From an uncultured Bacteroidota bacterium (GTDB lineage Bacteria; Bacteroidota; Bacteroidia; Bacteroidales; WCHB1-69), in contig CADADB010000002.1 in the NCBI GenBank assembly GCA_902786595.1, forward strand, positions 222,011 through 260,131: 38,121 nucleotides of DNA, written 5' to 3'. The notes beneath the pieces were generated by a model that saw only the letters and a program-made list of their open reading frames with translations, made no database searches and had not been told where the DNA came from. Shown here piece by piece: positions 5,862-36,482 of the stretch (its first letter is position 1; each line of letters opens with the position of its first letter). The position numbers were made by a program, and so were the translations under genes.

Positions 5862-6809
5862 ATGGTAAGCAGGCACTATTTGAGAATCAAGACCATGCAG
5901 GCATTATATGCGTATAATGCCAATCCTAAGGCAAATGTAGCAACTGCCGAAGCGGATTTGTTGAAGTCTGTGCGCAGTTGTTACACGCTTTTCCTTTGGC
6001 TCTTTGCCCTGCTGCCTGAAATCGCCTTTTACAGGACCAAGAAGCTGGACAGTCTGAAGGAGAAATTCAACCCGACGGCGGAAGACTTGAACCCCAACAC
6101 CAAATTTGTGGACAACAAGGTGATCCGCCAGATCGAAAACAACCAAGAACTCCAGCATCTATGGCCGAAATACCATATCCTATGGGAGGATGAAACCGAT
6201 TTGATTGCCAAATTGTTCCGTGAGATCGAACAACTTCCAGAGTATGAAGTTTATATGTCGGGAGGCGAAAGCGATTATCAAGAGGACAAGAAGTTCGTGC
6301 TGACGGTAATCGAAAAAGTATTCGCCGACAATGATCTGTTACATTGGTATTTAGGTGAGAAAAACACGCATTGGATAGACGACTATGATGAAGCCATGAT
6401 GATGCTTTATCAGAATGTCAAAGAGTTCAAGGAAAACAAAGGCGATGCGTGTAAAGTCGACTCTTTGTACAAGAGCGAGGAGGATGAGCAATTCTGTAAG
6501 CAACTGTTCCGCAAGACGATAGAACATGCGGATGAATACACCCAAATGATTGAGGAGAAGCTTCAGAACTGGGAGTTGGAAAGAGTCATTAACCTTGACA
6601 TGCTGTTGATGCGCATGGCCCTATGCGAGCTGCTGGAATTCCCCTTGATTCCTATCAAAGTGACGTTGAACGAGTATATTGAAATGGCCAAGTGGTACAG
6701 TTCAGACAAGAGCAAGGTATTTATTAATGGTATCCTGGACCGCTTGATTGTGGATTTGCGCGACAACGGACGCATCGTGAAGACGGGAAGAGGGTTGTAT
6801 CAGAATTGA
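5862..6809 (+). CDS. nusB: Transcription antitermination factor NusB
   Basis: NusB binds boxA RNA with S10 (NusE) in the antitermination complex that supports rRNA transcription. The recognisable NusB fold is in the last roughly 130 residues, including the conserved helices around NLDMLLMRMALCEL, KVTLNEYIEMAKWYSS and KVFINGILDRL. At 315 residues it is more than twice the E. coli length; the extra N-terminal part (about 170 residues) is usual for Bacteroidota NusB. It heads the run nusB, DUF1573 lipoprotein, yajC, YbbR-like, coaE, an order I recall from other Bacteroidales. Its stop codon lies inside a heptamer repeat array. Confidence 0.93.
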   Translation: MVSRHYLRIKTMQALYAYNANPKANVATAEADLLKSVRSCYTLFLWLFALLPEIAFYRTKKLDSLKEKFNPTAEDLNPNTKFVDNKVIRQIENNQELQHLWPKYHILWEDETDLIAKLFREIEQLPEYEVYMSGGESDYQEDKKFVLTVIEKVFADNDLLHWYLGEKNTHWIDDYDEAMMMLYQNVKEFKENKGDACKVDSLYKSEEDEQFCKQLFRKTIEHADEYTQMIEEKLQNWELERVINLDMLLMRMALCELLEFPLIPIKVTLNEYIEMAKWYSSDKSKVFINGILDRLIVDLRDNGRIVKTGRGLYQN

Positions 6810-6833
6810 TAATGGATAATGGATAATTGATAA
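6806..6833 (+). repeat. Heptamer array, four TKGATAA units, nusB junction
   Basis: Four 7-bp units run without interruption: TTGATAA, TGGATAA, TGGATAA, TTGATAA. The nusB stop codon (6807-6809) lies in the first unit, and the start codon of the next gene (6833-6835) begins at the last base of the final unit. The array therefore is the whole intergenic spacer. Confidence 0.9.
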
Positions 6834-7300
6834 TGAGAAAGACGACAATATTGTTAATGTTAACCATCGGATTGGTGTTCGGTGGGTGTCATCGTAAAGC
6901 GGCTCCGGAGGGCGGTTTTACGGTGAAGGATGTGCACAATCCCCAGACTGCCGAAGGAATGTCCGCCAAGGATGCGGAAAAGTTGCCCGTCATTGAATTT
7001 GAGACGACAACGTATGATTTCGGGGATGTGGTGGAAGGCGAACGGCTCACGTATGCTTTCAAATTCAAGAATACTGGAAAGTCAAACCTGATCATTTACT
7101 CTTCCGAAGCAACTTGCGGTTGCACTACGTCACAGCCGCCAAAGGCCCCCATTCGTCCAGGTGAAAGTGGCGAAATTATTGTGACGTTTGATTCCCAAGG
7201 ACAAAAAGGTCAGGTGAATAAACGAGTCTTGGTAGGTGCAAATACCTATCCTGTCGAGACCATTCTGACCATCACCGCGAATGTGTCGTCGAATAAGTGA
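6833..7300 (+). CDS. DUF1573 lipoprotein
   Basis: A 155-residue exported lipoprotein. The N-terminus has a short basic-hydrophobic signal with lipobox VFGGC, so the cysteine near residue 19 would be acylated. The rest is one DUF1573 domain, an Ig-like beta sandwich related to ASPM-SPD-2-Hydin modules, with the family signature around FETTTYDFGDVVEGE, FKFKNTGKSNLII, ATCGCTTSQPP and GQVNKRVLV. I chose the ATG at 6833 over an in-frame TTG at 6827, because the upstream bases belong to a heptamer repeat. The biochemical role of DUF1573 proteins is unknown. Its position in the nusB-yajC-coaE run is typical for Bacteroidales. Confidence 0.88.
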   Translation: MRKTTILLMLTIGLVFGGCHRKAAPEGGFTVKDVHNPQTAEGMSAKDAEKLPVIEFETTTYDFGDVVEGERLTYAFKFKNTGKSNLIIYSSEATCGCTTSQPPKAPIRPGESGEIIVTFDSQGQKGQVNKRVLVGANTYPVETILTITANVSSNK

Positions 7301-7356
7301 ATAGTGAACAGTGATTAGTGATTAGTCTTGAATATCAAATCACAAATCACAAATAA
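7296..7356 (+). repeat. Two heptamer arrays (AGTGATT x4, CAAATCA x3)
   Basis: AGTGAAT, AGTGAAC, AGTGATT, AGTGATT occupy 7296-7323, then after 12 bp CAAATCA, CAAATCA, CAAATAA occupy 7336-7356. The lipoprotein stop TGA (7298-7300) is within the first unit. The A-rich remainder up to yajC at 7392 shows no other feature. Confidence 0.85.
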
Positions 7357-7391
7357 ACAATAAAACAAACAATTAATCAAACAACGAACGT

Positions 7392-7763
7392 ATGCTGAAC
7401 ATTTTATTTCCTTTATTAGATGCAGCTCCTGCTGCGGCACCCTCAGGTATGGGCGGCGGCTCTTCCATGCTCATTTTCATCCTGCTGATGATCCTCATTT
7501 TCTATTTCTTCATGATTCGTCCTCAGCAGAAGAAACAGAAAAAAATTGAAGAAGCCCGTAACAGTCTCCAAAGAGGCGACAAAGTGGTGACCATTGGTGG
7601 TATCCACGGCAAGATTACGGATATCAAAGACAACACGTTCACCATTGAAATCGCTCACGATGTCCGCATCGAAGTCGATAAGGCGGCCATTTCTTTCAAC
7701 GAAGCTACCCTGAACCAACCTAAACAGGAGCCCAAACAAGAAGAAAAGAAAGAAAACGAGTAG
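7392..7763 (+). CDS. yajC: Sec translocon accessory subunit YajC
   Basis: YajC is a small membrane partner of SecDF that supports Sec-dependent export. The 123-residue protein has a short Ala/Pro/Gly-rich N-terminus, one transmembrane helix (about residues 24-42, ending in FFMIRPQQKKQKK, the family hallmark), then the conserved cytoplasmic part LQRGDKVVTIGGIHGKI and a C-terminal Lys/Glu/Gln-rich tail. Length and layout are normal. The next gene begins 3 bp after its stop, so translation is probably coupled. Confidence 0.96.
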   Translation: MLNILFPLLDAAPAAAPSGMGGGSSMLIFILLMILIFYFFMIRPQQKKQKKIEEARNSLQRGDKVVTIGGIHGKITDIKDNTFTIEIAHDVRIEVDKAAISFNEATLNQPKQEPKQEEKKENE

Positions 7764-7766
7764 GCA

Positions 7767-8186
7767 ATGGCTGATAACAAGCAACATAGAATACCTGTGA
7801 AATTACCGTCATTGGCTTTTATAGTGTGCCTGTTGATTTCGGTCGCCTGCTGGGTGGTGGTTACCTTCTCCAAAGATTACAAGATGACGTACGAGTATAA
7901 ACTGGTATGCGACAATCTGCCTGAAGGTCGCAAATCAGTTACGGCTTCAGATACTGTCATCGCATTGACCTTCAACCAGAAAGGGCTTCGATATTTGACA
8001 AAGCCGTTTACGGGCAAAAACAAAGAGGTGACAGTGTCTGTCAGTGACCTGATAAAGCCGAAGAACAAGGTGAGTGTCTATACGTTCACGAACAAGGAGA
8101 TGTGCGACTTTTTGGTAGAGCACAATTTCGGTCCGGAATTGGTGGCGGTTTCATCCCCCGAGGTCATCACGTTCTATTTGCGTTAA
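7767..8186 (+). CDS. Short YbbR-like membrane protein
   Basis: A 139-residue protein with a cytoplasmic basic N-terminus, one transmembrane helix (about residues 14-34) and an extracytoplasmic domain resembling a single YbbR repeat. The resemblance covers the start (TYEYKLVCDNLPEGR) and the alternating strands ending in SSPEVITFYLR. Position between yajC and coaE supports this, since Bacteroidales often carry a YbbR-domain gene there. The usual homolog is, from memory, about twice as long, so this one seems reduced to one domain. YbbR proteins elsewhere (CdaR) regulate diadenylate cyclase, but nothing here shows that function. The assignment is tentative. Confidence 0.65.
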   Translation: MADNKQHRIPVKLPSLAFIVCLLISVACWVVVTFSKDYKMTYEYKLVCDNLPEGRKSVTASDTVIALTFNQKGLRYLTKPFTGKNKEVTVSVSDLIKPKNKVSVYTFTNKEMCDFLVEHNFGPELVAVSSPEVITFYLR

Positions 8187-8188
8187 TA

Positions 8189-8737
8189 ATGGTCAAAATC
8201 GGTCTTACCGGAGGGATAGGTACCGGGAAAACTTACCTTTCTTCCCATTTCCGTGACATGGGAATTCCTGTGTATTATGCCGACGAGGAGGCGAAAAAGC
8301 TCTATCGTAAGCCCGAGTTTCTGTCGGAGATGCGTAAGGTGTTTCCGGCAGAAAATCTTTGGTTTCCCGACGGGTCTCTTAACATGTCCGAACTGGCAAA
8401 GTCTTTTGCGGACGAGAATTTCCTGCAGCGGCTCAGCCGTTTCGTGCATCCGTTTGTGATGCGCGACTTCGAAAGTTGGGCTGCGCAGCAGAATACGCCT
8501 GCAGTGATGATGGAATCTGCCATTCTATTTGAGTATGATCTGGTTTCCTATTTCGACAAGATCATTGTCGCGGACGCGCCGGAGGCATTGCGTATCAAAC
8601 GCATCTTGGCGCGGAATCCCCATCTGACCGAAGCGGACATCCGTCAGCGCATGTCGCGGCAGATGTCGCAAGAGGAGAAATGCTCCCGCGCGGATTTGGT
8701 GGTCTGCACGGGGGAGACGTATCGGGAAGGATTGTAA
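8189..8737 (+). CDS. coaE: Dephospho-CoA kinase
   Basis: CoaE phosphorylates the 3'-hydroxyl of dephospho-CoA, the last step of coenzyme A synthesis. The 182-residue protein has the P-loop GLTGGIGTGKT at the N-terminus, the conserved YYADEEAKKLY segment, HPFVMRDFESW, ESAILFE, and the lid region RQMSQEEKCSRADLVV. The ATG at 8189, 2 bp after the YbbR-like stop, is preferred over an upstream in-frame start that would overlap that gene. The C-terminus is about 10-15 residues shorter than usual: the last helix after the ADLVV strand is nearly absent. The catalytic core looks intact. Confidence 0.93.
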   Translation: MVKIGLTGGIGTGKTYLSSHFRDMGIPVYYADEEAKKLYRKPEFLSEMRKVFPAENLWFPDGSLNMSELAKSFADENFLQRLSRFVHPFVMRDFESWAAQQNTPAVMMESAILFEYDLVSYFDKIIVADAPEALRIKRILARNPHLTEADIRQRMSRQMSQEEKCSRADLVVCTGETYREGL

Positions 8738-8761
8738 TTCATAATTATAGCATGTTCTAAA

Positions 8762-8791
8762 AAAAGAGACACCCGAAAAAGGTGTCTCTTT
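8762..8791. terminator. Bidirectional terminator, coaE / S46 peptidase
   Basis: A perfect stem AGAGACACC / GGTGTCTCT with a 7-nt loop CGAAAAA is flanked by an A-run on the left and TTTCT on the right. It can terminate both convergent units. Confidence 0.85.
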
Positions 8792-8813
8792 CTGTCTTAT
8801 AGCACAAAACGTA

Positions 8814-10973
8814 CTATTTCCGCACATCCATCTCTTTCAGCAGGTAGCCGGCGCCGCCGAACTTGTCGATGACAAAGAGGACGTAGCGCACATCCACGTT
8901 GATGCAGCGTTGCAGCTCGGTGTTGAACACGATGTCACTGCTCAAGGCCTCCCAGTTGCCGTCGAAGGCCAGGCCGATGAGCTCGCCGTTGGCATTCATG
9001 ATCGGGCTGCCGGAGTTACCGCCCGTGATGTCGTTGTTGGAGAGGAAGCAAACGTGCATGGTGCCGTCCTTGTCTAAATATTGACCGAAATCCTTCTTCA
9101 GGATGAGGTCTTTCAGCTTGGCAGGCACGTCGAACTCAAAATCACCGGGAACCTCTTTCTCCAAGATACCCTTTGTGGTGGTGTAGTAGTTGTAATGCAC
9201 ACCGTCGGCGGGATAGTAGTCGCAGATGGTACCGAAAGTGGTACGCATGGTGCTGTTGGCATCTGGATACATCGGCGTGGAGGCGTTCATCTCCTTCAAC
9301 GCGGCGATGTAGGTGCGGCGCGGAACCTCTAACTTCTCTTCCACATCCATAGCAGAGGATGCTGACATGATATATTGGAGCAGTGCCTGGAAATATTGGT
9401 ATGAAGGATCGCTCTCCAGAACCTTGTTGGACGGTTTTTTGACAAATTTCTCGAAATTATCCTTGCTGATGAAGATGGAGTTGAGCATGGCCTTCTCGAA
9501 AGCGTCGTAGTTGCCTTTGTAATTTTTGGTGAAGAAAGTGAGGTCGGGACGGTTGGCTTCGGAATGGCTCTGCCAAGTCTTGAGGCAAGCCACCACGATC
9601 TTGGCTTCAGTCGCCGGGTCGGTGTCGTTGTTGTACTTGTCAAACGATTTCAAAAGTTTCTCCACTTTGCTGTCGTCGAATTTTTTCACTCCTTTGTCGA
9701 GCTTCAGCTGTCCTTGCAGACGCAGGGTGGCGAGCAATGTCGGGGAGGCGGAGAACTGCAGGTTGCCGTTCAATGCGGATTTGTATTTCGCGCCATCGAC
9801 TTCCTTGCAGATTTTCTCGATTTCGGCCAGACAATTACCATATTTCTCTTTGCGCTTTTTGTCAGCATTGATCCATTTGGTCAGCTCGGCCTCTTGCTTT
9901 GCTTTGGATTCCACCACTTTGAGGGCTTTCAAGCTTGCCACTTCGCCGTGTTGGTTTTTCCAGTAGTTGGCCAGACCAGCGTGTTTGTCGGCATATTGCA
10001 GGTTCACCTTGTTGGAAGCTTCCATGGCGTCGTGCATCACGGGCAGGATGACATCCAGCGGCTCATAGATAGCCGGGGCGTTGATGTCGATCTCATTCTG
10101 CACCTCGTAGGAGGTCATAAAACGGTTGGTGGTGCCAGGATAACCCCAAATCATAGTGTAATCACCAGGTTTATAACCCTTTAAGCTGATGGGCAGATAA
10201 TGCTTCGGGTGCATCGGAACATTGTCCTTGGAGTATTTGGCAGGAGAGCCGTCGGGGGCGGTGTAGATGCGGAACACGGTGAAGTCGCCGGTGTGACGGG
10301 GCCACATCCAGTTGTCGGTGTCGCCGCCGAACTTGCCGATGGCACTCGGGGGAGCCACCACAAGGCGCACATCCTCATACATGGTATAGACGAACATGTA
10401 GTACTCGTTGCCTTCGTAGAAGGGTTTCACCACGACTTTGTAGCGGCCGTCGGCGGAGTTCTCCTTGCGCAGCTTCTTGATGGCCTCTTCCACATATTTT
10501 GCGCGGTCGGTTTCCGAGGTGTTGTTGTCAACCTTCTCCAGCACAATGCTCGTCACATCTTCCATTCTCTCAAGGAAATGCACGTGGAAATCAACGGGCA
10601 GCTCCTCTTCTTTGCTCATGGCGAAGAAACCATTGTTGAGGTAGTCGTGCTCCACGGAAGAGAGTTCCACCACAGAAGAGTAGCCGCAGTGGTGGTTGGT
10701 GAACATCAGACCGTCTCGGGAGACCATCTCGCCAGTGCAGAAGCCGTCGCCGAGTTGCACGATGGCGTCCTTCAGGGACGAATTGTTGATGTTGTAAAGT
10801 TGTTCGGCCGTCAGCTTCAAGCCCATCTTCTGCATTGTCGCATAATTGTAGTTCTTGATGAACATCGGCAGCCACATGCCTTCGTCGGGCGGATTCACGG
10901 CAAAAACAGGAGCCGTGATCGCCAAAACTGCCAATAACAGCAGTTGCTTTTTCAGAAATGTTAATAATTTCAT
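8814..10973 (-). CDS. dpp7: S46 dipeptidyl-peptidase, DPP7 type
   Basis: A 719-residue exported serine exopeptidase that releases dipeptides from the N-terminus of oligopeptides in the periplasm. A signal peptide of about 25 residues ends in APVFA. The chymotrypsin-like triad is visible: His in FTNHHCGY (H95), Asp in the GGDTDNWMWPRHTGDF region and Ser in GGNSGSP (S654). Between them lies the helical domain that covers the active site. The specificity position is Gly (G672, in FDGNWEAL), as in Porphyromonas DPP7. DPP11, specific for Asp/Glu, carries Arg there, so preference for hydrophobic P1 residues is expected. It follows lspA on the same strand with a 16-bp gap and ends at a bidirectional terminator. 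Confidence 0.93.
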   Translation of the reverse strand: MKLLTFLKKQLLLLAVLAITAPVFAVNPPDEGMWLPMFIKNYNYATMQKMGLKLTAEQLYNINNSSLKDAIVQLGDGFCTGEMVSRDGLMFTNHHCGYSSVVELSSVEHDYLNNGFFAMSKEEELPVDFHVHFLERMEDVTSIVLEKVDNNTSETDRAKYVEEAIKKLRKENSADGRYKVVVKPFYEGNEYYMFVYTMYEDVRLVVAPPSAIGKFGGDTDNWMWPRHTGDFTVFRIYTAPDGSPAKYSKDNVPMHPKHYLPISLKGYKPGDYTMIWGYPGTTNRFMTSYEVQNEIDINAPAIYEPLDVILPVMHDAMEASNKVNLQYADKHAGLANYWKNQHGEVASLKALKVVESKAKQEAELTKWINADKKRKEKYGNCLAEIEKICKEVDGAKYKSALNGNLQFSASPTLLATLRLQGQLKLDKGVKKFDDSKVEKLLKSFDKYNNDTDPATEAKIVVACLKTWQSHSEANRPDLTFFTKNYKGNYDAFEKAMLNSIFISKDNFEKFVKKPSNKVLESDPSYQYFQALLQYIMSASSAMDVEEKLEVPRRTYIAALKEMNASTPMYPDANSTMRTTFGTICDYYPADGVHYNYYTTTKGILEKEVPGDFEFDVPAKLKDLILKKDFGQYLDKDGTMHVCFLSNNDITGGNSGSPIMNANGELIGLAFDGNWEALSSDIVFNTELQRCINVDVRYVLFVIDKFGGAGYLLKEMDVRK

Positions 10974-10989
10974 AGTACTATTGATTAAA

Positions 10990-11724: not shown

Positions 11725-11765
11725 TTTGACCTTGATTTGAGTTAGACAAATTTTTTATTAGTCGG

Positions 11766-11773
11766 CAAAAATA
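11766..11773 (-). promoter_or_regulatory. -7 box for lspA
   Basis: On the minus strand this reads TATTTTTG, a match to TAnnTTTG, about 42 bp before the lspA ATG. It is divergent from the box at 11814. No clear -33 element. Confidence 0.55.
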
Positions 11774-11813
11774 CAAAATTATCAGAAAAAACCCTTTGTT
11801 CCGAAATATTTTA

Positions 11814-11821
11814 TATTTTTG
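11814..11821 (+). promoter_or_regulatory. -7 box for the small lipoprotein gene
   Basis: TATTTTTG matches TAnnTTTG, 26 bp before the ATG at 11848. A TTTG at 11795-11798 could be the -33 element, but the spacer is only 15 bp instead of about 19. Confidence 0.55.
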
Positions 11822-11847
11822 CCATTCGTTTTATAAAATGAAGAATT

Positions 11848-12321: not shown

Positions 12322-12331
12322 ATATCAGGTT

Positions 12332-15022: not shown

Positions 15023-15027
15023 CATTG

Positions 15028-27651: not shown

Positions 27652-27667
27652 CCCAAATGTGGACAAT

Positions 27668-28147
27668 ATGACGGATTTTCGCGTTGGCTTCGGCTACGAT
27701 TCCCATAGATTCGCCCCCGACAGACCTTTGGTCATTGGGGGCGTTGTCATTCCATACGAGCTCGGATTGGCCGCCCATTCCGACGGCGATGTGCTGATCC
27801 ACGCCGTTTGCGACGCGTTGTTGGGTGCTGCTGGCCTGAAAGATATCGGTACCTATTTTCCAGATACCGACAACACCTGGAAAAACGCGGACAGCACGGT
27901 ACTTTTGGCTAAAGTGGTGGATTTGATTTCCGACAAAGGTTGGAAAGTCAACAACTTGGATTGCACGCTCATTTTGGAGAAGCCCAAGATGAAACCGCAT
28001 GTGGATTCTATTATTGCCCGTTTGTCTGCGTTGCTTCGGGTGGATGCCGAGCGTGTGGCCGTGAAAGCCAAAACCAACGAGAAGATGGGATTCACTGGAG
28101 CTGGAGAAGGCATTGCCGCCACCGCTGCGGTGAGCATTGTTCGATAG
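27668..28147 (+). CDS. ispF: 2-C-methyl-D-erythritol 2,4-cyclodiphosphate synthase
   Basis: IspF closes CDP-methylerythritol 2-phosphate into the cyclic diphosphate in the MEP isoprenoid pathway. The 159-residue protein has the metal ligands in GFGYDSH (D11, H13) and AAHSDGD (H37), the DNTWKNADS segment and the C-terminal KAKTNEKMGFTGAGEGIAA signature. I chose the ATG at 27668; an in-frame GTG at 27659 would add three residues. Length is normal. The stop TAG (28145-28147) adjoins heptamer-period sequence. Confidence 0.96.
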   Translation: MTDFRVGFGYDSHRFAPDRPLVIGGVVIPYELGLAAHSDGDVLIHAVCDALLGAAGLKDIGTYFPDTDNTWKNADSTVLLAKVVDLISDKGWKVNNLDCTLILEKPKMKPHVDSIIARLSALLRVDAERVAVKAKTNEKMGFTGAGEGIAATAAVSIVR

Positions 28148-28190
28148 TTAGCCGTTAGTATCCGAAAGCCAATAGCCCACAGCCAACAAT
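28146..28190. repeat. Heptamer-period spacer between ispF and HAD gene
   Basis: GTTA recurs at 28147 and 28154 (period 7), then AGCCAAT, AGCCCAC, AGCCAAC at 28167-28187. It fills the space between the convergent stops of ispF and the HAD phosphatase. No hairpin terminator is obvious. Confidence 0.7.
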
Positions 28191-28840
28191 CAAAGATCAA
28201 CAATTTCCAACAACTCAAGGGGATGTTCAATGATGTATCGGGCACCGGCTTCCTGCAATTCTTCTAAAGGACGGTAGCCCCATAGTACGCCTACAGGGGT
28301 GACTTCTGCATTGTGCGCCAAGTGCATGTCCGTGGCGGTGTCGCCCACATGCAAGGCCTCCGATGGCGCGCAGCCGGTTTCTTTCAGAATGTCGTACATG
28401 ATTTGCGGGGCGGGCTTTACGGGGATACCCTCTCGCTGCCCGATCATCGAGTCAAAGCAGATGCCGGGGAAGTATTTCTCCATCAGCGGCTTTACCGCGA
28501 TATGCACTTTGTTCGTGGCCACGGCAATCTTCAGTCCGCGTTTTTTCAACTCGGTGAGTAAATCCGTAATTCCTTCATATACAGATGTTTTGTCCTCCAT
28601 GTGAACTTTATAATAAGCCACGAATTCTTGTCGGCACAGCTCGATTGTGGCCTCGTTTCGTTCTTCTGGCGGCAATATCCGTTCAATGAGCTTGCGCACC
28701 CCGTCGCCTACAAAATAGCGATAAGCATCCACCGGGTGGGTAGGAAAACCATGCTGTGTCAGCACATGGTTGGCTGAATCCGCCAGGTCTTCCAGCGAAT
28801 TGAGCAGCGTGCCGTCGAGGTCGAATACGATAAGGTTCAT
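28190..28840 (-). CDS. gph: HAD phosphatase, phosphoglycolate phosphatase-like
   Basis: A 216-residue HAD subfamily IA hydrolase. Motif I is FDLDGTLLNS with nucleophile D7 and acid D9; motif II is VATNK; the motif III/IV region is HVGDTATDMHLAHNA. The cap domain is helical (about residues 15-80). The closest named activity is 2-phosphoglycolate phosphatase (Gph), which salvages the product of DNA 3'-phosphoglycolate repair, but subfamily IA enzymes such as pyrophosphatases look alike, so the substrate is uncertain. It is the last gene of a minus-strand run after lplA, with a heptamer array in the 45-bp gap. Confidence 0.85.
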   Translation of the reverse strand: MNLIVFDLDGTLLNSLEDLADSANHVLTQHGFPTHPVDAYRYFVGDGVRKLIERILPPEERNEATIELCRQEFVAYYKVHMEDKTSVYEGITDLLTELKKRGLKIAVATNKVHIAVKPLMEKYFPGICFDSMIGQREGIPVKPAPQIMYDILKETGCAPSEALHVGDTATDMHLAHNAEVTPVGVLWGYRPLEELQEAGARYIIEHPLELLEIVDL

Positions 28841-28845
28841 TTAAT

Positions 28846-28906
28846 GGTTATTGGTTATAGGTTATTGGTTATTGAGGGTTATAGGTTAGAGGGTTAGAAG
28901 GTTAAC
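28846..28906. repeat. Heptamer array GGTTATT, lplA / HAD junction
   Basis: GGTTATT, GGTTATA, GGTTATT, GGTTATT run from 28846 to 28873, then GGTTATA and GGTTAGA at 28877-28890, with looser copies GGTTAGA and GGTTAAC up to 28906. The lplA stop (28886-28888 on minus) lies in the array, which also encodes the final residues NLLTL of LplA. Confidence 0.88.
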
Positions 28907-29881
28907 TATATCTTCGTGGGTTACGTTGTGGAAATAGTCGTTGATGTTGATGTTGGCGAGGGCGGTGGCGAGGGCGGTTTTATCGAGGCGGATGCCAATG
29001 AGTTGGTTGATAAGTTCTTGCGGGTCTTTTTCGCCAAAGAAATCGCCATAGAATTGGAGGTCGCGGAGGTGGCCGTCGCGGATGTCGGCAATCACCTGCA
29101 CGGTGCCGCCTTTCGTCCGTATTTTCTTGTTCATCGAATAATCCGGAGATTTGCCGTAGTTCCACTCCCAAGTTTCGTATTTCTGTTTGGCCAGTTGGTT
29201 GACAATCGCCTCTTCTTCATTGGTGAGATTTTGTAAATCAGACATTTGATTCTGTTTCATGATGAAATTCATCAGATACTCCCGAAACTCTGAAACCGTC
29301 ATAGGGTGGGGAAGGTGTTCTGAGATATTGGTGACGCGGCTGCGTACGGATTTCACGGCCTTGTCCTGGAATTTGGTCGGATCAACCTTCAGTGCGTTCG
29401 AAATGTCGGTCATTTGAGACGCAAACAGCAGTGTGCCGTGTTCCAAAACGCGGTTTTCGTAGAACATCATGGCGTTGCCTGAGATCTTCTTGCCGTCAAT
29501 GACCAAGTCGTTGCGTCCCGAAAACTCCGCTGGAACGCCTAAAGACCGCAGCGCGTCCACAATCGGTTGCAGGTATTTCAGGAAGTCGATTCCTTTGTTG
29601 CCTGGTTCGATATTTTGGATGAAGGAGAAGTTGAGGTTGCCGATGTCGTGGAAGACTGCCCCGCCGCCAGTCTGCCGTCGGATTACGTTAACATGGTGGC
29701 TTTCAACATATTCCTGGTTGATTTCGGCTGCCGTGTTCTGATGCCTGCCAATGACGATAGTGTTGGCGTTCTGCCACAACATGAAAACGTTGTCCTTCGT
29801 TTGCTGCAGAAGGTACTCCTCCGCCGCCAGGTTGTGGTATGGGGAGGTACTATTGAGGGATATGTAACGTATCTGTTCCAT
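28886..29881 (-). CDS. lplA: Lipoate--protein ligase
   Basis: LplA activates lipoate with ATP and attaches it to the lysine of lipoyl domains (2-oxoacid dehydrogenases, glycine cleavage H protein). The 331-residue protein has the NTIVIGRHQN start region, RRQTGGGAVFHD, the lysine motif DGKKISGNAMM, and a C-terminal accessory domain (about residues 250-331) as in E. coli LplA. The last five residues NLLTL are encoded by a heptamer repeat, and the stretch TALATALANININ just before comes from small tandem duplications. It follows the radical SAM gene on the same strand after a 176-bp spacer with inverted heptamer arrays. Confidence 0.93.
   Translation of the reverse strand: MEQIRYISLNSTSPYHNLAAEEYLLQQTKDNVFMLWQNANTIVIGRHQNTAAEINQEYVESHHVNVIRRQTGGGAVFHDIGNLNFSFIQNIEPGNKGIDFLKYLQPIVDALRSLGVPAEFSGRNDLVIDGKKISGNAMMFYENRVLEHGTLLFASQMTDISNALKVDPTKFQDKAVKSVRSRVTNISEHLPHPMTVSEFREYLMNFIMKQNQMSDLQNLTNEEEAIVNQLAKQKYETWEWNYGKSPDYSMNKKIRTKGGTVQVIADIRDGHLRDLQFYGDFFGEKDPQELINQLIGIRLDKTALATALANININDYFHNVTHEDIVNLLTL
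28943..28978. repeat. Adjacent 6-bp and 12-bp perfect tandem duplications
   Basis: GATGTT is repeated at 28943-28954 and GGCGAGGGCGGT at 28955-28978, both perfect and in frame within the lplA 3' region. They encode the repeats NI-NI and TALA-TALA, probably from replication slippage. Confidence 0.8.
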
Positions 29882-29887
29882 ACTTTA

Positions 29888-29915
29888 TTTAGACGTATGA
29901 CTTAAGACGTAAGAC
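29888..29915. repeat. Heptamer array upstream of lplA, inverted partner
   Basis: TTTAGAC, GTATGAC, TTAAGAC, GTAAGAC: four units with period 7. Its reverse complement matches 30034-30061 at 24 of 28 positions, so the two arrays are inverted repeats flanking about 118 bp of T-rich spacer. Confidence 0.8.
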
Positions 29916-30002
29916 TATTGGGGTTTTACGATGATATTTGTTGATTTATTCTTTTGTCCTTCGTATTTCATTTCTTTTTTTTAATGTTTTTATGTCCTAT
30001 CT

Positions 30003-30058
30003 CAAGTCTCAAGTCTTAAGTCTCAAGTCTTAAGTCTTAAGTCTTAAGTCTCACGTCT
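30003..30058. repeat. Eight-unit heptamer array (YAAGTCT)
   Basis: Eight uninterrupted 7-bp units: CAAGTCT twice, TAAGTCT, CAAGTCT, TAAGTCT three times, CACGTCT. The radical SAM stop codon (minus, 30058-30060) abuts the array. The rest of the 29916-30002 spacer is T-rich with no gene. Confidence 0.92.
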
Positions 30059-30954
30059 CAACCTCTCAAAGAAAGTCCTGCCATCAGCGTGTCAGGGCGG
30101 AAGTCCATGACGGAGCGCATCTCGCCGGCCATGCAGAATCCGCACTGGTCGCAGACGCCCGCGCTTTTGCCCACGCACTCGGGCAGGCGCGTGCCGTCGG
30201 GCAGGATGTAGTTGCACATCCAGCAGGCCTTCTCGAACGACAAATCCTTCATCCTTTTCAATCCCGAGACGGAGTTCATGATGGGCATCCGTTTCTTTTT
30301 CTGTTCTATCAGCTTGTCAATCACTTCAATACGTTTGTCCCAATCCAAAATCAGAGGGTCTTGGTCTTTGAAGAAAGCAGGCGTGTAGAAGTTGAAGGCG
30401 ATGCTCTTAAAAGTGGGGTGCTCTTTCACGAATTGCAGCGTATCCATCACGTTGACGTAGTTGTTGGCATCGATGACCATATTGGCACTTAATGCTTTAT
30501 GCCCGCAACTATCGACATTCTTCACTAGCTTGTCGAAAGTGCCCTGTCCGCGCACAGCATCATGAAATTCGTGAATACCGTCCATACTGACCCAAATCGA
30601 GTTGGCTTTGAGTCCGGCGAAGGGCTGCTGGGCGTTGGTGGTCACGGTGGTGGTGAAGAAGCCGATTTGGTGGGCGAGGTCGATGAGGTCGTTGATCCGA
30701 CGGTCGCCGTCGCGCCAGAGGGTCGGTTCGCCGCCTTCGAAATCCACAAAACGGGAGCCCAAATCGTAGGAATACTGCAGTTCCTCGCGGATTTGTTCGT
30801 AACTTTTGTCGGTAGGATGTTCGTGGTCATAGACACTGCAGTGCGAGCACGACAAGTTGCACCGATTGGTAATGAACAGCACCGTCTGTAGCGGTTTGCG
30901 CCGTTTCAGGAACTTCGTCTGGAAATACCAGCTGCCTAAGTAGAATATCATCAT
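30058..30954 (-). CDS. Radical SAM protein with six-Cys C-terminal cluster
   Basis: A 298-residue radical SAM enzyme of unassigned function. The 4Fe-4S motif CNLSCSHC (C32, C36, C39) follows the first strand TVLFITNR; EGGEPTLW is the SAM-binding GGE motif. The C-terminal region holds six more cysteines in the pattern C-x2-C-x12-C-x7-C-x2-C-x2-C (C244 to C274), which should bind at least one auxiliary Fe-S cluster in a SPASM/twitch-like way. The N-terminus, about 20 residues, has a hydrophobic-aromatic stretch (MIFYLGSWYF) then basic residues. No precursor peptide is seen beside it, and SPASM proteins range from peptide modification to sulfatase maturation. It has its own -7 box. Confidence 0.82.
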   Translation of the reverse strand: MMIFYLGSWYFQTKFLKRRKPLQTVLFITNRCNLSCSHCSVYDHEHPTDKSYEQIREELQYSYDLGSRFVDFEGGEPTLWRDGDRRINDLIDLAHQIGFFTTTVTTNAQQPFAGLKANSIWVSMDGIHEFHDAVRGQGTFDKLVKNVDSCGHKALSANMVIDANNYVNVMDTLQFVKEHPTFKSIAFNFYTPAFFKDQDPLILDWDKRIEVIDKLIEQKKKRMPIMNSVSGLKRMKDLSFEKACWMCNYILPDGTRLPECVGKSAGVCDQCGFCMAGEMRSVMDFRPDTLMAGLSLRG

Positions 30955-30976
30955 TGCGAATAGGTTTTTCGAGCGG

Positions 30977-30984
30977 CAAAGATA
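30977..30984 (-). promoter_or_regulatory. -7 box for the radical SAM gene
   Basis: Minus-strand TATCTTTG, a TAnnTTTG match, 22 bp before the ATG at 30954. Its -33 region coincides with the heptamer array at 30994-31028. Confidence 0.6.
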
Positions 30985-30993
30985 CTATTTTTA

Positions 30994-31028
30994 CAGTTGT
31001 AGTTAGCAGTTAGCAGGTAGAAGTTATG
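30994..31028. repeat. Heptamer array between divergent promoters (AGTTAGC)
   Basis: CAGTTGT, AGTTAGC, AGTTAGC, AGGTAGA, AGTTATG: five units of 7 bp. It lies between two outward-facing -7 boxes, occupying the upstream promoter region of both. Confidence 0.82.
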
Positions 31029-31039
31029 GGGAAAAAGTG

Positions 31040-31047
31040 TACTTTTG
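31040..31047 (+). promoter_or_regulatory. -7 box for the acyltransferase gene
   Basis: TACTTTTG, a TAnnTTTG match, 21 bp before the ATG at 31069. It argues against a TTG start at 31045, which would lie inside the box. Confidence 0.6.
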
Positions 31048-31068
31048 CGGACTAAAAACCTGTTCACT

Positions 31069-31737: not shown

Positions 31738-31749
31738 CCCAAAAAAGTG

Positions 31750-31757
31750 TATTTTTG
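31750..31757 (+). promoter_or_regulatory. Promoter of the DPP5-like gene
   Basis: TATTTTTG (-7 box), with ATTG ending at 31730 as a possible -33 element separated by the expected 19 bp. The ATG is at 31801. It is the best-spaced promoter in the window. Confidence 0.7.
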
Positions 31758-31800
31758 CCCTCCGTTTGTCGGAATTATCAAACAAGCATAAAAAATTATA

Positions 31801-33882
31801 ATGAAAAAAGTCCTTTTCGGTTTATCATTGATTATGATAATGGTAAGTGGTTGTAAACAAGCGAAGAACGAAAAACAAACATCGGTTATCGACAAGGGGA
31901 GCCGCGAGACGCCCGACTTCTCGAAGGGCGTGATGGATGAGAAAATCCTCTGGTATCTCGGCCGTTTGGGCGATGTGCAGGTGTCGCCGGACGGACAGAC
32001 ATTGCTCTACACGGTTACCTATTACGATTATCGCGCCAATAAGGGCAATACGGAGCTTTACACGATGCCCGCCACTGGTGGAGATCCTACCCGCATCACC
32101 GTGACGGAAGAGAGCGAGATGCAGCCCTTGTGGCGTCCAGATGGCAAGAAAATCGCCTTCCTCCGCGCCAACGACAAGGGCATGCAAATCTGGGAGGCCG
32201 ATCCTGACGGCTCGAACGCCAAAGCTATCAGCAATATAGATGGCGATATCAACGGTTTCGGCTATGCGCCCGACATGAAACACATTTGCTATTTCCGCAA
32301 TGTTCAGCTGGAGCAGACCGTCGCGGAACGCTACCCCGACTTGCCGGATGCTGACGCCATGATCTACGACGATCTGATGTACCGTCATTGGAATTACTGG
32401 GCCGATGGCACATACAGCCACCTTTTCGTGGCCGATTACCCGTCGATGGAAAACGAGGTTGACCTACTGGAAGGCCAGAAATTCCATTGCCCGAATCCGC
32501 CGTTCGGTGGTATGGAGGAGGTGGCTTGGCTTCCCGACGGTGATAAACTTGTTTATTGCTGTAAGAAGTTGACAGGTAAGGATTTCGCCGAAAGCACCAA
32601 CACAGATATTTACCTTTACAACCTCAAAACGAAAACCACGCAAAACCTGACTGAGTTCAACAAGGGTTATGATATGGATCCCGTAATTTCACCCGATGGC
32701 AAGAAAATGGTCTGGTGGAACATGAAAACCGACGGTTTCGAGTCCGAGAAGCACAGTTTGATGATTTACGATTTCGAGTCCGGCAATGCGGAAGACTACA
32801 GTACGGATTTCGATCAAGACGCTACTGGCTTTTCATGGGGTGAGGATAGTAAAACGGTCTATTTTATCAGCTGTATCGAGGCCACACATCATGTCTATAA
32901 AATGAACTTGGAATCTCGTGTCATTGAGAAATTGACGGAGGGCGATTATGATTATAATTCAGTGCAAGTAAATGGTAATCAGCTGATTGTCACACGAACC
33001 ACACACGCACAGCCGTCTGAGATTTATGCCGTAAAGCTGAGCGACCATTCTGTACAGCAGTTGAGCTTCATCAACAAGGACGTTTTGGATAAGATCACTC
33101 CGGCCACTTCGGTGAAACGCTGGGTGAAGACCACCGACGGCAAGCAGATGCTCGTGTGGGTGATTCTTCCCCCGAATTTTGATTCCACGAAGAAATACCC
33201 TGCCTTGCTCTATTGTCAGGGAGGTCCGCAATCGTCTGTGAGCCAGTTCTTTTCCTACCGTTGGAACTTCCAGATGATGGCGGCCCACGATTACATCATC
33301 GTGGCCCCGAACCGTCGGGGACTGCCCGGTTTCGGTCACGAGTGGAACGACCAGATCAGCGGCGACTACGGTGGACAGAACATGAAAGACTATCTCGCCG
33401 CCATTGATGACGTAGCGAAAGAACCGTACGTGGATGAGAATCGATTGGGCTGTGTGGGAGCCAGTTACGGTGGCTTCAGCGTCTATTGGCTTGCTGGCCA
33501 CCACCAGAAACGGTTCAAAGCGTTCATTGCGCACTGCGGCATGTTCAATCTTGAAAGCTGGTACGGTACCACCGAAGAGCTCTTCTTTGCCAACCACGAC
33601 ATCGAGGGACCGTATTGGGAAAAACCGGTGCCGAATAGTTATAATATATCGCCGCACAAGTTCGTGGGTCTTTGGGACACTCCGATTTTGGTTATTCATG
33701 GCGGCAAAGACTTCCGCATTCCTTACACTGAGGGTATGCAAGCTTTCGACGCCGCGCAGATGCAGGGAATCCCAAGCCGTTTTCTCTATTTCCCTGAGGA
33801 GTGCCACTTCGTGTCGAAGCCACAAAACTCCATGTTGTGGCAACGGGAGTTCTTTAGATGGTTGGATCAGTGGCTGAAATAA
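31801..33882 (+). CDS. S9 dipeptidyl-peptidase lipoprotein, DPP5-like
   Basis: A 693-residue prolyl-oligopeptidase-family exopeptidase. The signal peptide ends in lipobox MVSGC (Cys18), so it is membrane-anchored. The N-terminal about 400 residues form a beta-propeller of WD40-like PD40 repeats (VSPDGQTLLYTV, WRPDGKKIAFL, ISPDGKKMVWW). The alpha/beta-hydrolase domain carries S555 in GASYGGFS, D637 in GGKDFRIP and H669 in EECHFVS. The closest match I recall is P. gingivalis DPP5 (broad P1 preference for Ala and hydrophobic residues), including the GTTEELFFANHDIEGPYWEK segment. With the DPP7-type enzyme it would process exogenous peptides. Downstream lies a heptamer array, then an LptF/G gene. 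Confidence 0.9.
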   Translation: MKKVLFGLSLIMIMVSGCKQAKNEKQTSVIDKGSRETPDFSKGVMDEKILWYLGRLGDVQVSPDGQTLLYTVTYYDYRANKGNTELYTMPATGGDPTRITVTEESEMQPLWRPDGKKIAFLRANDKGMQIWEADPDGSNAKAISNIDGDINGFGYAPDMKHICYFRNVQLEQTVAERYPDLPDADAMIYDDLMYRHWNYWADGTYSHLFVADYPSMENEVDLLEGQKFHCPNPPFGGMEEVAWLPDGDKLVYCCKKLTGKDFAESTNTDIYLYNLKTKTTQNLTEFNKGYDMDPVISPDGKKMVWWNMKTDGFESEKHSLMIYDFESGNAEDYSTDFDQDATGFSWGEDSKTVYFISCIEATHHVYKMNLESRVIEKLTEGDYDYNSVQVNGNQLIVTRTTHAQPSEIYAVKLSDHSVQQLSFINKDVLDKITPATSVKRWVKTTDGKQMLVWVILPPNFDSTKKYPALLYCQGGPQSSVSQFFSYRWNFQMMAAHDYIIVAPNRRGLPGFGHEWNDQISGDYGGQNMKDYLAAIDDVAKEPYVDENRLGCVGASYGGFSVYWLAGHHQKRFKAFIAHCGMFNLESWYGTTEELFFANHDIEGPYWEKPVPNSYNISPHKFVGLWDTPILVIHGGKDFRIPYTEGMQAFDAAQMQGIPSRFLYFPEECHFVSKPQNSMLWQREFFRWLDQWLK

Positions 33883-33883
33883 T

Positions 33884-33928
33884 GGTTATGGGTTATGGGT
33901 TATTGGTGGTTAATGGTTAATGGTTAAT
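33884..33928. repeat. Heptamer arrays GGTTATG x3 and GGTTAAT x3
   Basis: GGTTATG, GGTTATG, GGTTATT (33884-33904), a 3-bp spacer GGT, then GGTTAAT three times (33908-33928). The array starts 2 bp after the peptidase stop, and the LptF/G start codon (33927-33929) overlaps its last unit. Confidence 0.9.
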
Positions 33929-35063
33929 GATGAAAGGGTTTGGCCGCATAAAGGAATTCAATGATCGTGTTCGAGAGAAGATTGGCTGGAAGATTATTGA
34001 CAGCTATCTGCTCAGGAAGATGCTGGGCACGATTGTGTTTGCCATCACTTTGTTGATGACCATTGTGGTGGTGTTCGATGTGTCGGAAAACATTCAACGG
34101 TTTATGAACCACAACATTCCGGCCAAAGAGGTGATTGTCGGTTACTATTTCAACTTCATCCCCTATTTCATCAATCTTTTTATCCCGTTGTTCACTTTTA
34201 TCAGTGTCATCTGGTTCACTTCCAAGCTCTCTTCACGCAACGAAATCATTTCTATCTTTGACAACGGCATCAGTTTCAACCGAATGCTGGTCCCCTATGT
34301 CGTGGGAGCCCTTCTCATTATGCTGTTGTCGTTAGTCTTGGCCAACTTCATTGTCCCCACGACAAACGGTAAATTGAATGATTTCAAATACCAATATTTC
34401 GGGCGCAGGAATGTGACCACTACCTATTTGCATATTAAAAACTCTAAAAACAGTTATGTCTTTGTCGAAAGGTGGGATAAGATGGAGGGAATAGGATATA
34501 ACTTCACCTACGAGGAGTTTGACAACAATGCCATCCGGTTGAAAATTTCGGCGCAAACCATTGATTATGACGAAGAAAAAAAGGTATGGCAGTTGCATCG
34601 TTTTACTCGTCGGGTCATCACTCCCGAACACGAAGAAATAATCACACAAGGGGAGCAGTTTGACACGGTGTTGAACATCTTGCCGAGAAATCTTTACCAG
34701 GATGCTTTTGTCAGTGAAACCATGTCGTACAAGGAATTGCGGCAGTTTATCAGAGAAGAGCGTATGCGTGGGTCGTCTTTATTAGCCAATTATCAGATAG
34801 AGCAGCATAAACGCTTGGCCAATCCGATGGGAATTTTGATTATGACCTTGTTAGGCGTGAGTGTGTCGTGCCGGAAATCCACAAGAGGAGTAGGAGTTCA
34901 TGTCTTTATCGGCATGGGTTTGGCTTTTTCGTTCATCTTCCTGCAGCAGATTTCCACAGTGTTTTCCGTTTCAGGTGGTTTGCCTCCTGTGCTGGGCACG
35001 TGGTTTCCAAATATTATCTTCCTTATAATCACGATTGTAATGCTTCGGTTAACACCGAAGTGA
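33927..35063 (+). CDS. LptF/LptG-family LPS export permease
   Basis: A 378-residue YjgP/YjgQ-family permease. LptF and LptG form the membrane part of the LptB2FG transporter that extracts lipopolysaccharide from the inner membrane. Six transmembrane helices are expected: helices near residues 35-50, 75-100 and 110-130, a periplasmic jellyroll (about 135-270), then three helices in the last 100 residues. Family landmarks are SYLLRKMLGT near the start, FTSKLSSRNEI, and the IEQHKRLANPMGILIMTLLGVSVS region (described here in part). Telling F from G by eye is unreliable; LptG is my guess. ATG 33927 or the next codon 33930 both work, and the first overlaps a heptamer repeat. Confidence 0.9.
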   Translation: MMKGFGRIKEFNDRVREKIGWKIIDSYLLRKMLGTIVFAITLLMTIVVVFDVSENIQRFMNHNIPAKEVIVGYYFNFIPYFINLFIPLFTFISVIWFTSKLSSRNEIISIFDNGISFNRMLVPYVVGALLIMLLSLVLANFIVPTTNGKLNDFKYQYFGRRNVTTTYLHIKNSKNSYVFVERWDKMEGIGYNFTYEEFDNNAIRLKISAQTIDYDEEKKVWQLHRFTRRVITPEHEEIITQGEQFDTVLNILPRNLYQDAFVSETMSYKELRQFIREERMRGSSLLANYQIEQHKRLANPMGILIMTLLGVSVSCRKSTRGVGVHVFIGMGLAFSFIFLQQISTVFSVSGGLPPVLGTWFPNIIFLIITIVMLRLTPK

Positions 35064-35099
35064 GGTTAGGAGCTTAGAAGGTTAATGATAAAATAGAAT

Positions 35100-35456
35100 A
35101 TGAAGAATACGACGATTTTTTTGAAGGGGATGCAGTTTTATGCTTATCACGGCTGTTTCGAGGAGGAACAGCAGATTGGCACGCATTTCATTGTGGATGT
35201 GACGCTTACGTATGATGCGCAAGCGGCCGTTGCAGGTGATGATGTGGAGAAGTCTGTGAATTACCAGCAGGTTTACAAAACCATTCAGCGGGTGATGAAT
35301 GTGCCGAGACATCTCATTGAGACTGTTGCGGATCATATCATAAGCAATATCAAGCATGATTTTCCTCAGGTAAGTATGATTACAGTGAAATTGTGCAAAC
35401 TAAACCCGCCGTTGGACGGAAAAACCGAATATGTGGCGGTGCAAATGGAAGGATAA
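35100..35456 (+). CDS. folB: Dihydroneopterin aldolase
   Basis: FolB splits dihydroneopterin into 6-hydroxymethyl-dihydropterin and glycolaldehyde in folate synthesis. The 118-residue protein has the usual FLKGMQFYAYHGCFEEEQQIG start with the active-site region, VNYQQVYKTIQ with the conserved Tyr, the LIETVADHI helix carrying the pterin-binding Glu, and the catalytic Lys in KLCKLNPPL. Length is normal. aroB begins within its stop codon (TAATG), which points to translational coupling. Confidence 0.95.
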   Translation: MKNTTIFLKGMQFYAYHGCFEEEQQIGTHFIVDVTLTYDAQAAVAGDDVEKSVNYQQVYKTIQRVMNVPRHLIETVADHIISNIKHDFPQVSMITVKLCKLNPPLDGKTEYVAVQMEG

Positions 35457-36463
35457 TGGCTAAAACGGACATCATACGGCAGCTTTCTGAGCATTTTCGG
35501 CGGCAAAATATCCGGAGAGTGGTGGTTTTGACGGATGAAAATGTGGAAAAGTATTATCCAGACTACTTTTCTGAACTGTCGGAAATGGTTTCCATGGACA
35601 AAATCGTGTTGCCGATCGGTGAACATACAAAATCCATTGATTCTGCCATTCAAATTTGGCAATATTTAGCTGAAAAACAATATGATAGAGATACTTTTCT
35701 GCTGAATTTCGGCGGCGGAATGGTGTGTGATCTCGGAGGATTTGTGGCTTCCACCTATAAACGCGGAATTCGATTCGCCAATGTCCCGACAACGTTGTTA
35801 GCCATGATAGACGCGGCAGTCGGCGGCAAGACAGGAGTGAATATGCAGAGGTTGAAGAATGTGGTTGGAACCTTTTATTTTCCTGACATTCAGCTTTCTG
35901 CAGACGTTTCATTACTGGATACACTTCCACAGGAAGAGATATATAGTGGTTTTGGTGAGTTAGTGAAATATGCGCTCATCGGGTCGGCGGAATTGTTTCA
36001 TGAATTGTGCCAGTCAGATGTTTTCCCTGTCATAAAGCCAGAATATGTCGATTTTTGCATAAAGTTTAAGCAAGAAGTGGTTGAAAAAGATCCAAAAGAC
36101 CAGGATTTTCGACATATTTTGAACTTTGGGCATACTTTCGGCCACGCAATTGAAAGTTACTGCGCAGAGAAGGGCTTTCCCATTGCACATGGTCTCGCAG
36201 TGGCGCAAGGCCTCTATTATGAATGCCTTCTCTCTGCGAAACTCGGCTACCTCTCACAAGAGGAATGGCATCAAATCGCCGAATTTCTCGCAAAACATTT
36301 CGAAATAATGCCGATTACTGATAAAATAATGCCAAAATTGCTCCATTATATGCAAAACGACAAGAAAAATCAACATGAGGAAATCAACTTCACCCTCCTT
36401 GACCGTATTGGCCATGCCACTTACAACCATCAGATTCAGGATTCGACACTCTTTAACCTATAA
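35456..36463 (+). CDS. aroB: 3-dehydroquinate synthase
   Basis: AroB converts DAHP to 3-dehydroquinate, step two of the shikimate pathway, using NAD and a divalent metal. The 335-residue protein shows the GEHTKSIDS segment, the NAD-binding GGGMVCDLGGFVAST, PTTLLAMIDAAVGGKTGVN, the metal-ligand region GELVKYALI and the histidines in LNFGHTFGHAIE. It is slightly shorter than E. coli AroB (362). The ATG at 35456 overlaps the folB stop by one base; a longer in-frame start would run deep into folB and is rejected. The final residues (FNL and the stop) are encoded inside an AACCTAT heptamer array. Confidence 0.96.
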   Translation: MAKTDIIRQLSEHFRRQNIRRVVVLTDENVEKYYPDYFSELSEMVSMDKIVLPIGEHTKSIDSAIQIWQYLAEKQYDRDTFLLNFGGGMVCDLGGFVASTYKRGIRFANVPTTLLAMIDAAVGGKTGVNMQRLKNVVGTFYFPDIQLSADVSLLDTLPQEEIYSGFGELVKYALIGSAELFHELCQSDVFPVIKPEYVDFCIKFKQEVVEKDPKDQDFRHILNFGHTFGHAIESYCAEKGFPIAHGLAVAQGLYYECLLSAKLGYLSQEEWHQIAEFLAKHFEIMPITDKIMPKLLHYMQNDKKNQHEEINFTLLDRIGHATYNHQIQDSTLFNL

Positions 36464-36482
36464 CCTATAACCCAAAACCCTT
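36455..36482. repeat. Heptamer array AACCTAT, aroB / AMP nucleosidase
   Basis: AACCTAT twice, AACCCAA, AACCCTT: four 7-bp units. The aroB stop TAA (36461-36463) spans the first two units. The array fills almost the whole 25-bp gap before the next gene. Confidence 0.88.

Follow-up and report, generated by a model that had tools for sequence, protein, structure and literature searches.

Tandem arrays with a period of seven nucleotides occupy gene junctions of a 38 kb stretch of DNA, hereafter the window (positions 222011-260131 of contig 2), from the genome of an uncultured Bacteroidales bacterium (G000; 2.84 Mb in 40 contigs), and they raise the question of what counts in sevens at gene edges. 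The answer to which we give an even chance is that the arrays are gene-edge heptamer elements, copied or exchanged ready-made and kept for their architecture. In this clade the arrays are dispersed in intergenic DNA, and many lie at gene edges with the same outward polarity at starts and at stops. Convergent neighbours are more frequent than divergent ones, and roughly one array in four has the potential to pair inside its own junction. Between two species, the sites tend to stay occupied while the heptamer family can change.

Arrays were scored by one rule for every period (match +1, mismatch -2, score of at least 11). At period 7 the window contains eight arrays, against a mean of 0.07 in 30 order-2 Markov simulations; period 12 has two, and periods 4-6 and 8-11 have none. 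The signals at periods 14 and 21 are re-detections of the period-7 arrays. A first 400-kb sample of the genome gave 85 arrays at period 7, 25 at period 14 and at most 10 at any other period, and its simulations gave none at period 7. In the full own-genome sample (838,121 bases, window included), the counts are 167 (period 7), 40 (period 14) and 19 (period 21), and no other period exceeds 17. According to a simple hexamer-based gene caller, whose start positions are approximate, 87% of these 838 kb is coding. Of the 167 period-7 arrays, 126 do not overlap a coding sequence, 40 run across the end of one and a single array lies wholly inside. Arrays occur at tandem (105/475), convergent (12/75) and divergent (17/83) junctions. 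Period 7 is therefore special and tied to gene junctions. The preliminary description of the window had proposed that arrays of constant period 7 lie at gene junctions, and had made its case depend on a period-7 excess and on junction enrichment at a larger scale; the 838 kb contain both. Six of the nine intervals that it listed hold the eight scored arrays, and the other three (28167, 29888 and 30994) are weaker, being detected by Tandem Repeats Finder only (scores 30, 36 and 38).

It had also been suggested that each place carries a different heptamer. This does not hold: one family comprises GGTTATT, GGTTAAT and AACCTAT (ATAGGTT as its reverse complement), and a further one comprises YAAGTCT and AGACGTA. 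In the own-genome sample, the 752 units represent 112 of the 1172 heptamer classes that are possible, and 81% of the units belong to 40 classes. About eight families recur at unlinked junctions, the main ones being, on the G-rich strand, GGTTATN, TTRGCTN, CGRTTTN, AGTTAGN, RAGACKT, GTGANYN, GATAATK and GAATKNN; families and written strand were picked after inspection of the data, and one array may count in more than one family. Unit numbers were counted in the stretches from G000 and its congener G020. GGTTATN arrays have four units in 41 of 51 cases, three in seven and two in three; TTRGCTN peaks at five units (22/60), and RAGACKT (11/22) and CGRTTTN (8/23) peak at four. The numbers for GAATNNN and GATAATK are broad, reaching 25 and 11 units, respectively.

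The GGTTAT family forms a dispersed element with the consensus TAAT(GGTTATN)3GGTTATTGAAG. Its ends extend beyond the repeat, with TAAT at the left in 28/47 copies and GAAG at the right in 30/47, and the TAAT end is the one nearer the gene edge in 41/47, at a distance of 15 nt or less in 32/47. The variable letters at the three inner places of 60 complete copies form 22 combinations, and C stands at 2 of the 180 positions. This avoidance of C is clade-specific, G060, G114, G175 and G196 using GGTTATC. The comparison set contains one genome per species, with 40 genomes of the genus and 295 of the order. When up to three mismatches are allowed, the 36-nt pattern matches G000 83 times, G020 92 times, G006 100 times and G040 84 times; it is found in 20 of the 40 genus genomes and has no match in the other 20, and its reversed control has no match in G000 and a single one in each of two other genus genomes. 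These dispersed copies contradict, for this family, the earlier argument that a shared period without a shared sequence excludes the spread of an element. TTRGCT arrays (four units, up to one mismatch) occur in 36/40 genus genomes, with 233 matches in G000 vs 4 for the reversed control. The abundances of the two families vary independently among congeners. For example, TTRGCT and GGTTAT matches number 397 and 15 in G051, 294 and 9 in G009, 19 and 84 in G040, and 13 and 53 in G013, the two patterns differing in length and tolerance and the counts including overlapping matches in long arrays. A longer mobile element around the arrays was considered and rejected: the longest word shared between 40-nt flanks averages 6.17 nt for arrays of the same family and 5.55 nt for different families, near-equal values which indicate that there is generally no long common flank, the short conserved ends of GGTTAT apart.

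Polarity is the strongest regularity of the arrays. It was measured on 251 arrays of at least three units from the eight families, 169 of them no more than 20 nt from a gene edge. The G-rich strand has its 5' end toward the gene in 158 of these 169 (106/114 at stops and 52/55 at starts), leaving 11 inward; more than 20 nt from an edge, 51 of 82 arrays read outward and 31 inward. A family-free test, which takes the strand with more G than C and scores whether its 5' side is nearer the open reading frame (ORF), gives 128 vs 30 in the own genome, 29 vs 5 in G020, 26 vs 10 in named close relatives and 23 vs 6 at other Bacteroidales loci. By the same test, arrays of periods 14 and 21 are polar (51 vs 9) and those of other periods are not (33 vs 31). 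When the G+T-rich strand is used instead, the own genome gives 114 vs 45. Families without G-tracts (TTRGCTN, CGRTTTN, RAGACKT, GATAATK) follow the rule too, and CGRTTTN, which has no stop codon in the sense direction, shows the usual polarity at stops in 6/6 cases. General base composition of junctions was ruled out as the source of the polarity by array-free junctions, in which G is not skewed outward (0.02 and 0.05).

The 32 pairs of adjacent arrays in the own-genome sample comprise 18 convergent, 12 co-oriented and 2 divergent ones; convergent pairs make up 5/8 in G020 and 4/7 in the named relatives, with none divergent in either. Inverted pairing of at least 18/20 nt within the same junction is available to 37 of 161 arrays, compared with 5% of 315 controls. 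Two folds, picked as examples for their pairing, have z scores of -6.1 and -4.4.

Orthologous junctions of G000 and G020 number 145, with a mean protein identity of 92%. Of these, 22 carry the same array, 8 carry unrelated arrays, 3 have an array in G000 only, 7 in G020 only and 105 in neither. With shared arrays excluded, G020 has an array at 8 of 11 occupied G000 sites vs 5 of 65 array-free sites (junctions of at least 20 nt; p=9e-6). This presence of an unrelated heptamer array at a site occupied in a congener is the new observation. By reading, about five of the eight swapped pairs lie at the same gene edge. The Dpp5-LptG junction of the window illustrates the pattern: its counterparts in relatives carry GGTTATN, AGTTAGN, AGAGTTT, RAGACKT, CCCTAAA or CAGTTAT arrays, six types that mostly begin at the Dpp5 stop, and distant members are often without an array. 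Some sites are strongly conserved. The GGTTAT array upstream of ORF 28190-28840 is identical at 34/34 positions in the relatives L023, L024 and L031, against an identity of 0.51-0.67 at fourfold sites of the two genes on either side; the remaining orthologous array comparisons, some of them across families, range in identity from 0.67 to 1.00. Others differ in length: at the site of the window units 28146..28159, the arrays of L023, L024, L031 and L026 are longer.

In the explanation that we favour, the elements are short arrays that belong to eight or more sequence families and often consist of four or five degenerate heptamers. Ready-made arrays would be copied and exchanged, more than generated de novo by slippage, in a non-autonomous process resembling transposition or recombination, and their retention at a site would be governed less by sequence than by period, polarity and contact with the gene edge. 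Their most likely effect would be to form a transcribed boundary between genes, giving a G-poor, A/C-rich leader ahead of the start and, past the stop, a G/U-rich RNA that may sometimes fold into a hairpin. This effect is placed at the RNA level because of the orientation of the arrays and their pairing. No agent of spread was found among reverse transcriptases and Y1 (RAYT-like) transposases, a role of the latter being left as unproven. Y1 matches occur in 36 of the 40 genus genomes, three of them in the own genome; of the genomes without one (G042, G015, G052 and G053), three have no match to either array pattern and G042 has 44 TTRGCT matches. One Y1 locus, L245, has a period-14 array.

Several observations weigh against the exchange of ready-made elements. 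Five-unit GGTTAT arrays are present elsewhere, as overlapping matches in the genus and order-wide listings, and GGTTAT is the only family with clear fixed ends. In the 295 genomes of the order, the four-unit GGTTATN pattern (up to one mismatch) is found in 20 and its reversed control, by a reading of the results table, in 18; since the reversed pattern, itself a heptamer array, matches about as many genomes, this search says little about GGTTAT outside the genus. The G+T-rich strand test is not significant at other Bacteroidales loci (18 vs 12). In five further Bacteroidales families, where stretches were mostly picked by a GGTTAT match and period counts are biased accordingly, polarity is weaker and not significant (26 vs 15, p=0.12) and is thus not established outside this clade. 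The sample of site swaps is small (11 cases); one swapped pair is a 590-nt junction of doubtful orthology and another shares part of its array, so that 6/9 are left when both are removed. At the fully conserved junction, 11 non-array positions are identical as well, and the conservation is thus not special to the array. No period-7 array lies within about 1.5 kb of 13 Y1-transposase loci from six genomes, and neither a target-site duplication nor a clean empty site was established. Reverse transcriptase (PF00078) matches are found in 9 of the 40 genus genomes and not in G020, which is 99% complete and has 92 matches to the GGTTAT element, so that this enzyme does not seem to be required; telomerase-like end extension by a reverse transcriptase, an idea suggested by the polarity, was rejected on the same ground.

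A related possibility, which we hold only tentatively, is a sequence-independent boundary element at gene edges, in which the period, the four or five units and the outward G-rich strand are kept and the heptamer is freely exchanged. The closest published architecture is that of the G-rich heptamers GGGNATC and GGGGA(C/T)T of Xanthomonas and Nostoc (Rehm et al. 2015, PMC4692102). In the portion of that report considered here, these heptamers are discussed as potential quadruplexes, no function is identified, well over 100 loci are given per Xanthomonas genome, and two of these genomes have 70 and 75 convergent inverted pairs. The arrays described here share with them the period of 7, a preference for four units, a mostly intergenic location and convergent pairs, and also the rule that repeats are nearly always closer to the 5' neighbouring ORF, whatever the ORF direction; the polarity rule itself has thus already been published for Xanthomonas and Nostoc (PMC4692102). 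They differ in that one G-rich unit type was studied per genome there, as far as that portion goes, whereas at least eight families, most without G-tracts, are present here and replace one another at orthologous sites (PMC4692102). Given the similar architecture in Xanthomonas and Nostoc, a widespread process or reader with a 7-nt step may set or recognise gene boundaries.

Polymerase slippage is an unlikely alternative. Heptanucleotide microsatellites would arise with a step of 7 nt corresponding to the DNA segment held in the polymerase, and their survival would be limited to intergenic DNA, since a 7-nt period shifts the reading frame. An excess of heptamers in bacteria, with slippage as the proposed origin, was described by Mrazek (2007), as cited in the consulted parts of PMC4679880 and PMC4692102. 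The dominance of periods 7, 14 and 21, the near absence of arrays from coding sequences and the wide range of unit numbers in GAATNNN and GATAATK agree with such an origin, and slippage may indeed lie behind the long, variable GAATG and GATAAT arrays. Outside arrays, runs of 7-10 matches are somewhat in excess at lag 7, with 35 against 18, 14, 23 and 21 at lags 6, 8, 9 and 10. This excess of two-copy seeds is mild, which tends to speak against simple slippage, and a generic 7-bp duplication was rejected for the same small excess. Also against slippage are the regular four units and conserved ends of GGTTAT, the same families at many unlinked loci and a polarity that other periods lack. Local slippage at each place, as first envisaged for the window, is likewise not supported, given the GGTTAT element with its dozens of unlinked copies.

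It is comparably doubtful that the arrays are convergent cis-elements, selected in place, whose A/C-rich, unstructured leader would aid initiation without a Shine-Dalgarno sequence and which would aid the termination of translation or transcription past stops. The fixed sense in which arrays abut starts and stops, and the complete identity of some orthologous arrays, would fit this proposal, as would a Beggiatoaceae genome in which TAACTGA repeats immediately precede start codons (PMC4679880). It leaves unexplained the period of 7, the conserved ends of GGTTAT and the abundance of a family in only some congeners. TAACTGA repeats adjoining starts are reported from Beggiatoaceae, Cyanobacteria and a few Bacteroidetes, and other heptamers are mentioned for Microcystis and three Bacteroidetes (MacGregor 2015, PMC4679880, in the sections available). 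They resemble the present arrays in having one orientation just upstream of starts, in being present in Bacteroidetes and in that a close relative can be without them (PMC4679880). That system is nevertheless one of a single heptamer, with few or no direct repeats of related heptamers in the main genome, and the sections available contain no polarity rule covering stops (PMC4679880). The TAACTGA class is absent from the 30 commonest of the 60 dominant heptamer classes of the own genome; the related TAACTGC is one of these 30.

G-quadruplex formation, discussed for GGGNATC in the portion of the Rehm report considered (PMC4692102), is very improbable here. (GGTTATN)4 does contain four G-tracts, and the four-unit preference, polarity and convergent pairs match those described there (PMC4692102). 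These tracts are only GG, becoming GGG if N is G, and the three-G tracts of the Rehm type are lacking in GGTTATN, TTRGCTN, CGRTTTN and others. TTRGCTN, CGRTTTN, RAGACKT and GATAATK have no three-G tract and show the same polarity, mostly with four or five units; the shared polarity of families without G-tracts led to the rejection of quadruplexes as a general cause.

The preliminary description interpreted the arrays as all-frame translational stops. Stop codons were counted per 7 nt on each strand. For arrays with an edge between -21 and 13 nt of a stop, the sense strand gives 0.83 and the other 0.44 (n=72, p=6e-5), and the same tendency is seen in the named relatives (0.84 vs 0.58, n=23, p=0.04) and in G020 (0.72 vs 0.43, n=18, p=0.14). 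At tandem junctions, 74 of 130 arrays close all three sense frames, compared with 49 expected and 46 on the other strand, and in 34 of 154 array-stop comparisons the whole stop codon lies within the array. These counts favour the interpretation. Stops on the outward strand mean nothing at a start codon, so that start-edge arrays serve as a comparison; their outward strand has 0.49 (n=62) vs 0.78 for all stop-edge arrays (n=121). Arrays wholly past a stop show no excess, with 0.54 (n=54, p=0.46 against start edges) and 0.53 for column-permuted units, and arrays farther from a stop show no strand difference in the own genome. The excess is confined to arrays that overlap the gene end and therefore gives no evidence for a general all-frame stop function. 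The stop-free CGRTTTN family is polarized in the same way, and stop cassettes are the least probable of the explanations considered and were rejected as a general function.

Among other known systems, heptanucleotide elements have been described in Geobacter (PMC2700814, consulted in part), and three heptanucleotide short tandemly repeated repetitive sequences are known from Calothrix, as cited in the considered portion of PMC4692102. The likeness to Calothrix, several tandem heptanucleotides in one genome, is drawn through this citation only (PMC4692102). Cyanobacterial heptamer repeats, which had been named as the closest parallel, are indeed among the nearest ones. A literature search with a few word combinations returned nothing on heptamer families in rumen Bacteroidales or on the replacement of families at orthologous sites. 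The interest of this clade is that it separates the variables: many heptamers share one polarity, and families swap at sites that are kept. Taken together, the shared polarity and the swaps argue against G-tracts, stop codons and plain slippage as general causes, and what counts in sevens at gene edges becomes a testable question.

REP elements are palindromes with a GTAG head that flank the gene of their own RAYT (Y1) transposase. By this definition, the arrays are similar in being short, dispersed, intergenic and often in inverted pairs, in a genome with three Y1 matches; they differ in lacking a GTAG head or a single palindrome, and the Y1 loci mentioned above have no array of period 7. Degenerate heptamers are also found in the tRNA-Leu intron of Nostoc.

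The proteins of the window include matches in NCBIfam to Lon, a NusB-like protein, a Dpp7-like protein, GldJ, PorU, lipoate-protein ligase, Dpp5 and an LptG-like protein. The source bacterium is probably a rumen inhabitant, because its Dpp5 protein is best matched, in a public search that may leave out the genome's own records, by Bacteroidales metagenome-assembled genomes (93% identity) whose titles include goat omasum and sheep rumen. The individual arrays of the window are listed in Table 1.

Table 1. Heptamer arrays of the window and their position relative to predicted genes
Feature	Position	Strand	Context
GATAATK-family array, 4.6 units	6804..6835	+	Contains stop of NusB-like ORF 5862-6809; reads outward from stop; ends on ATG at 6833-6835
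GTGANYA-family array	7296..7326	+	Contains stop of ORF that ends at 7300
Converging partner array (CAAATCA on +)	7336..7364	-	Between 7326 and next start 7392
Predicted stem	7311-7323 with 7338-7350		Inverted match 12/14; fold -11.6 kcal/mol, z -1.8
Two weak AGTTAGN-like units	28146..28159	+	Across stop of ORF 27659-28147
Weak AGCCAAN units (TTRGCTN on -)	28167..28188	-	Directly past stop of ORF 28190-28840 (-); converges with 28146..28159; fold z -2.5
Full GGTTAT element, TAAT(GGTTATN)3GGTTATTGAGG	28842..28877	+	Start edge of ORF 28190-28840 (-); scored array 28841-28874
Weak RAGACKT-family array	29891..29915	+	Start edge of lipoate-protein ligase ORF 28886-29881 (-)
RAGACKT-family array, about 8 units	30000..30061	-	Contains stop of ORF 30058-30954 (-)
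Weak AGTTAGC array	31001..31026	+	Divergent junction; 46 nt from start at 30954; 18 or 42 nt to next start, depending on choice of start codon
GGTTATN x3, then GGTTAAT x3	33884..33929	+	Between stop of Dpp5 ORF (33882) and start of LptG ORF (33927)
GGTTATN-family array (ATAACC on +)	36454..36480	-	Covers stop 36461-36463; just upstream of start 36489

Other repeats share these junctions in relatives. Dispersed palindromic repeats that look like REP elements are found, for example, upstream of the orthologue of ORF 28190-28840 (L024 and L031) and at the end of lplA nearer to ORF 30058-30954 (L027 and L029); the types GTAGAGACGC...GCGTCTCTAC and GTAGGGGCGTAT...ATACGCCC occur in the same junctions as heptamer arrays. 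Longer arrays, whose units include GATGAGGCGATGAAAC (period 8/16) and GATGAATGTTGGTC (period 14), stand beside or in place of heptamer arrays in the G020 junction at L165, opposite own-genome locus L135:8573, and at the lplA end of L026. At the lplA end of L023, L024 and L030, and in L198, arrays with a period near 6 and CTATAA/CTATGA-like or GACATA-like units replace the RAGACKT array of the window or adjoin other arrays. In the window itself, a 12-bp tandem repeat, TGGCGAGGGCGG (2.1 copies, 28954-28978), lies within the lipoate-protein ligase gene.

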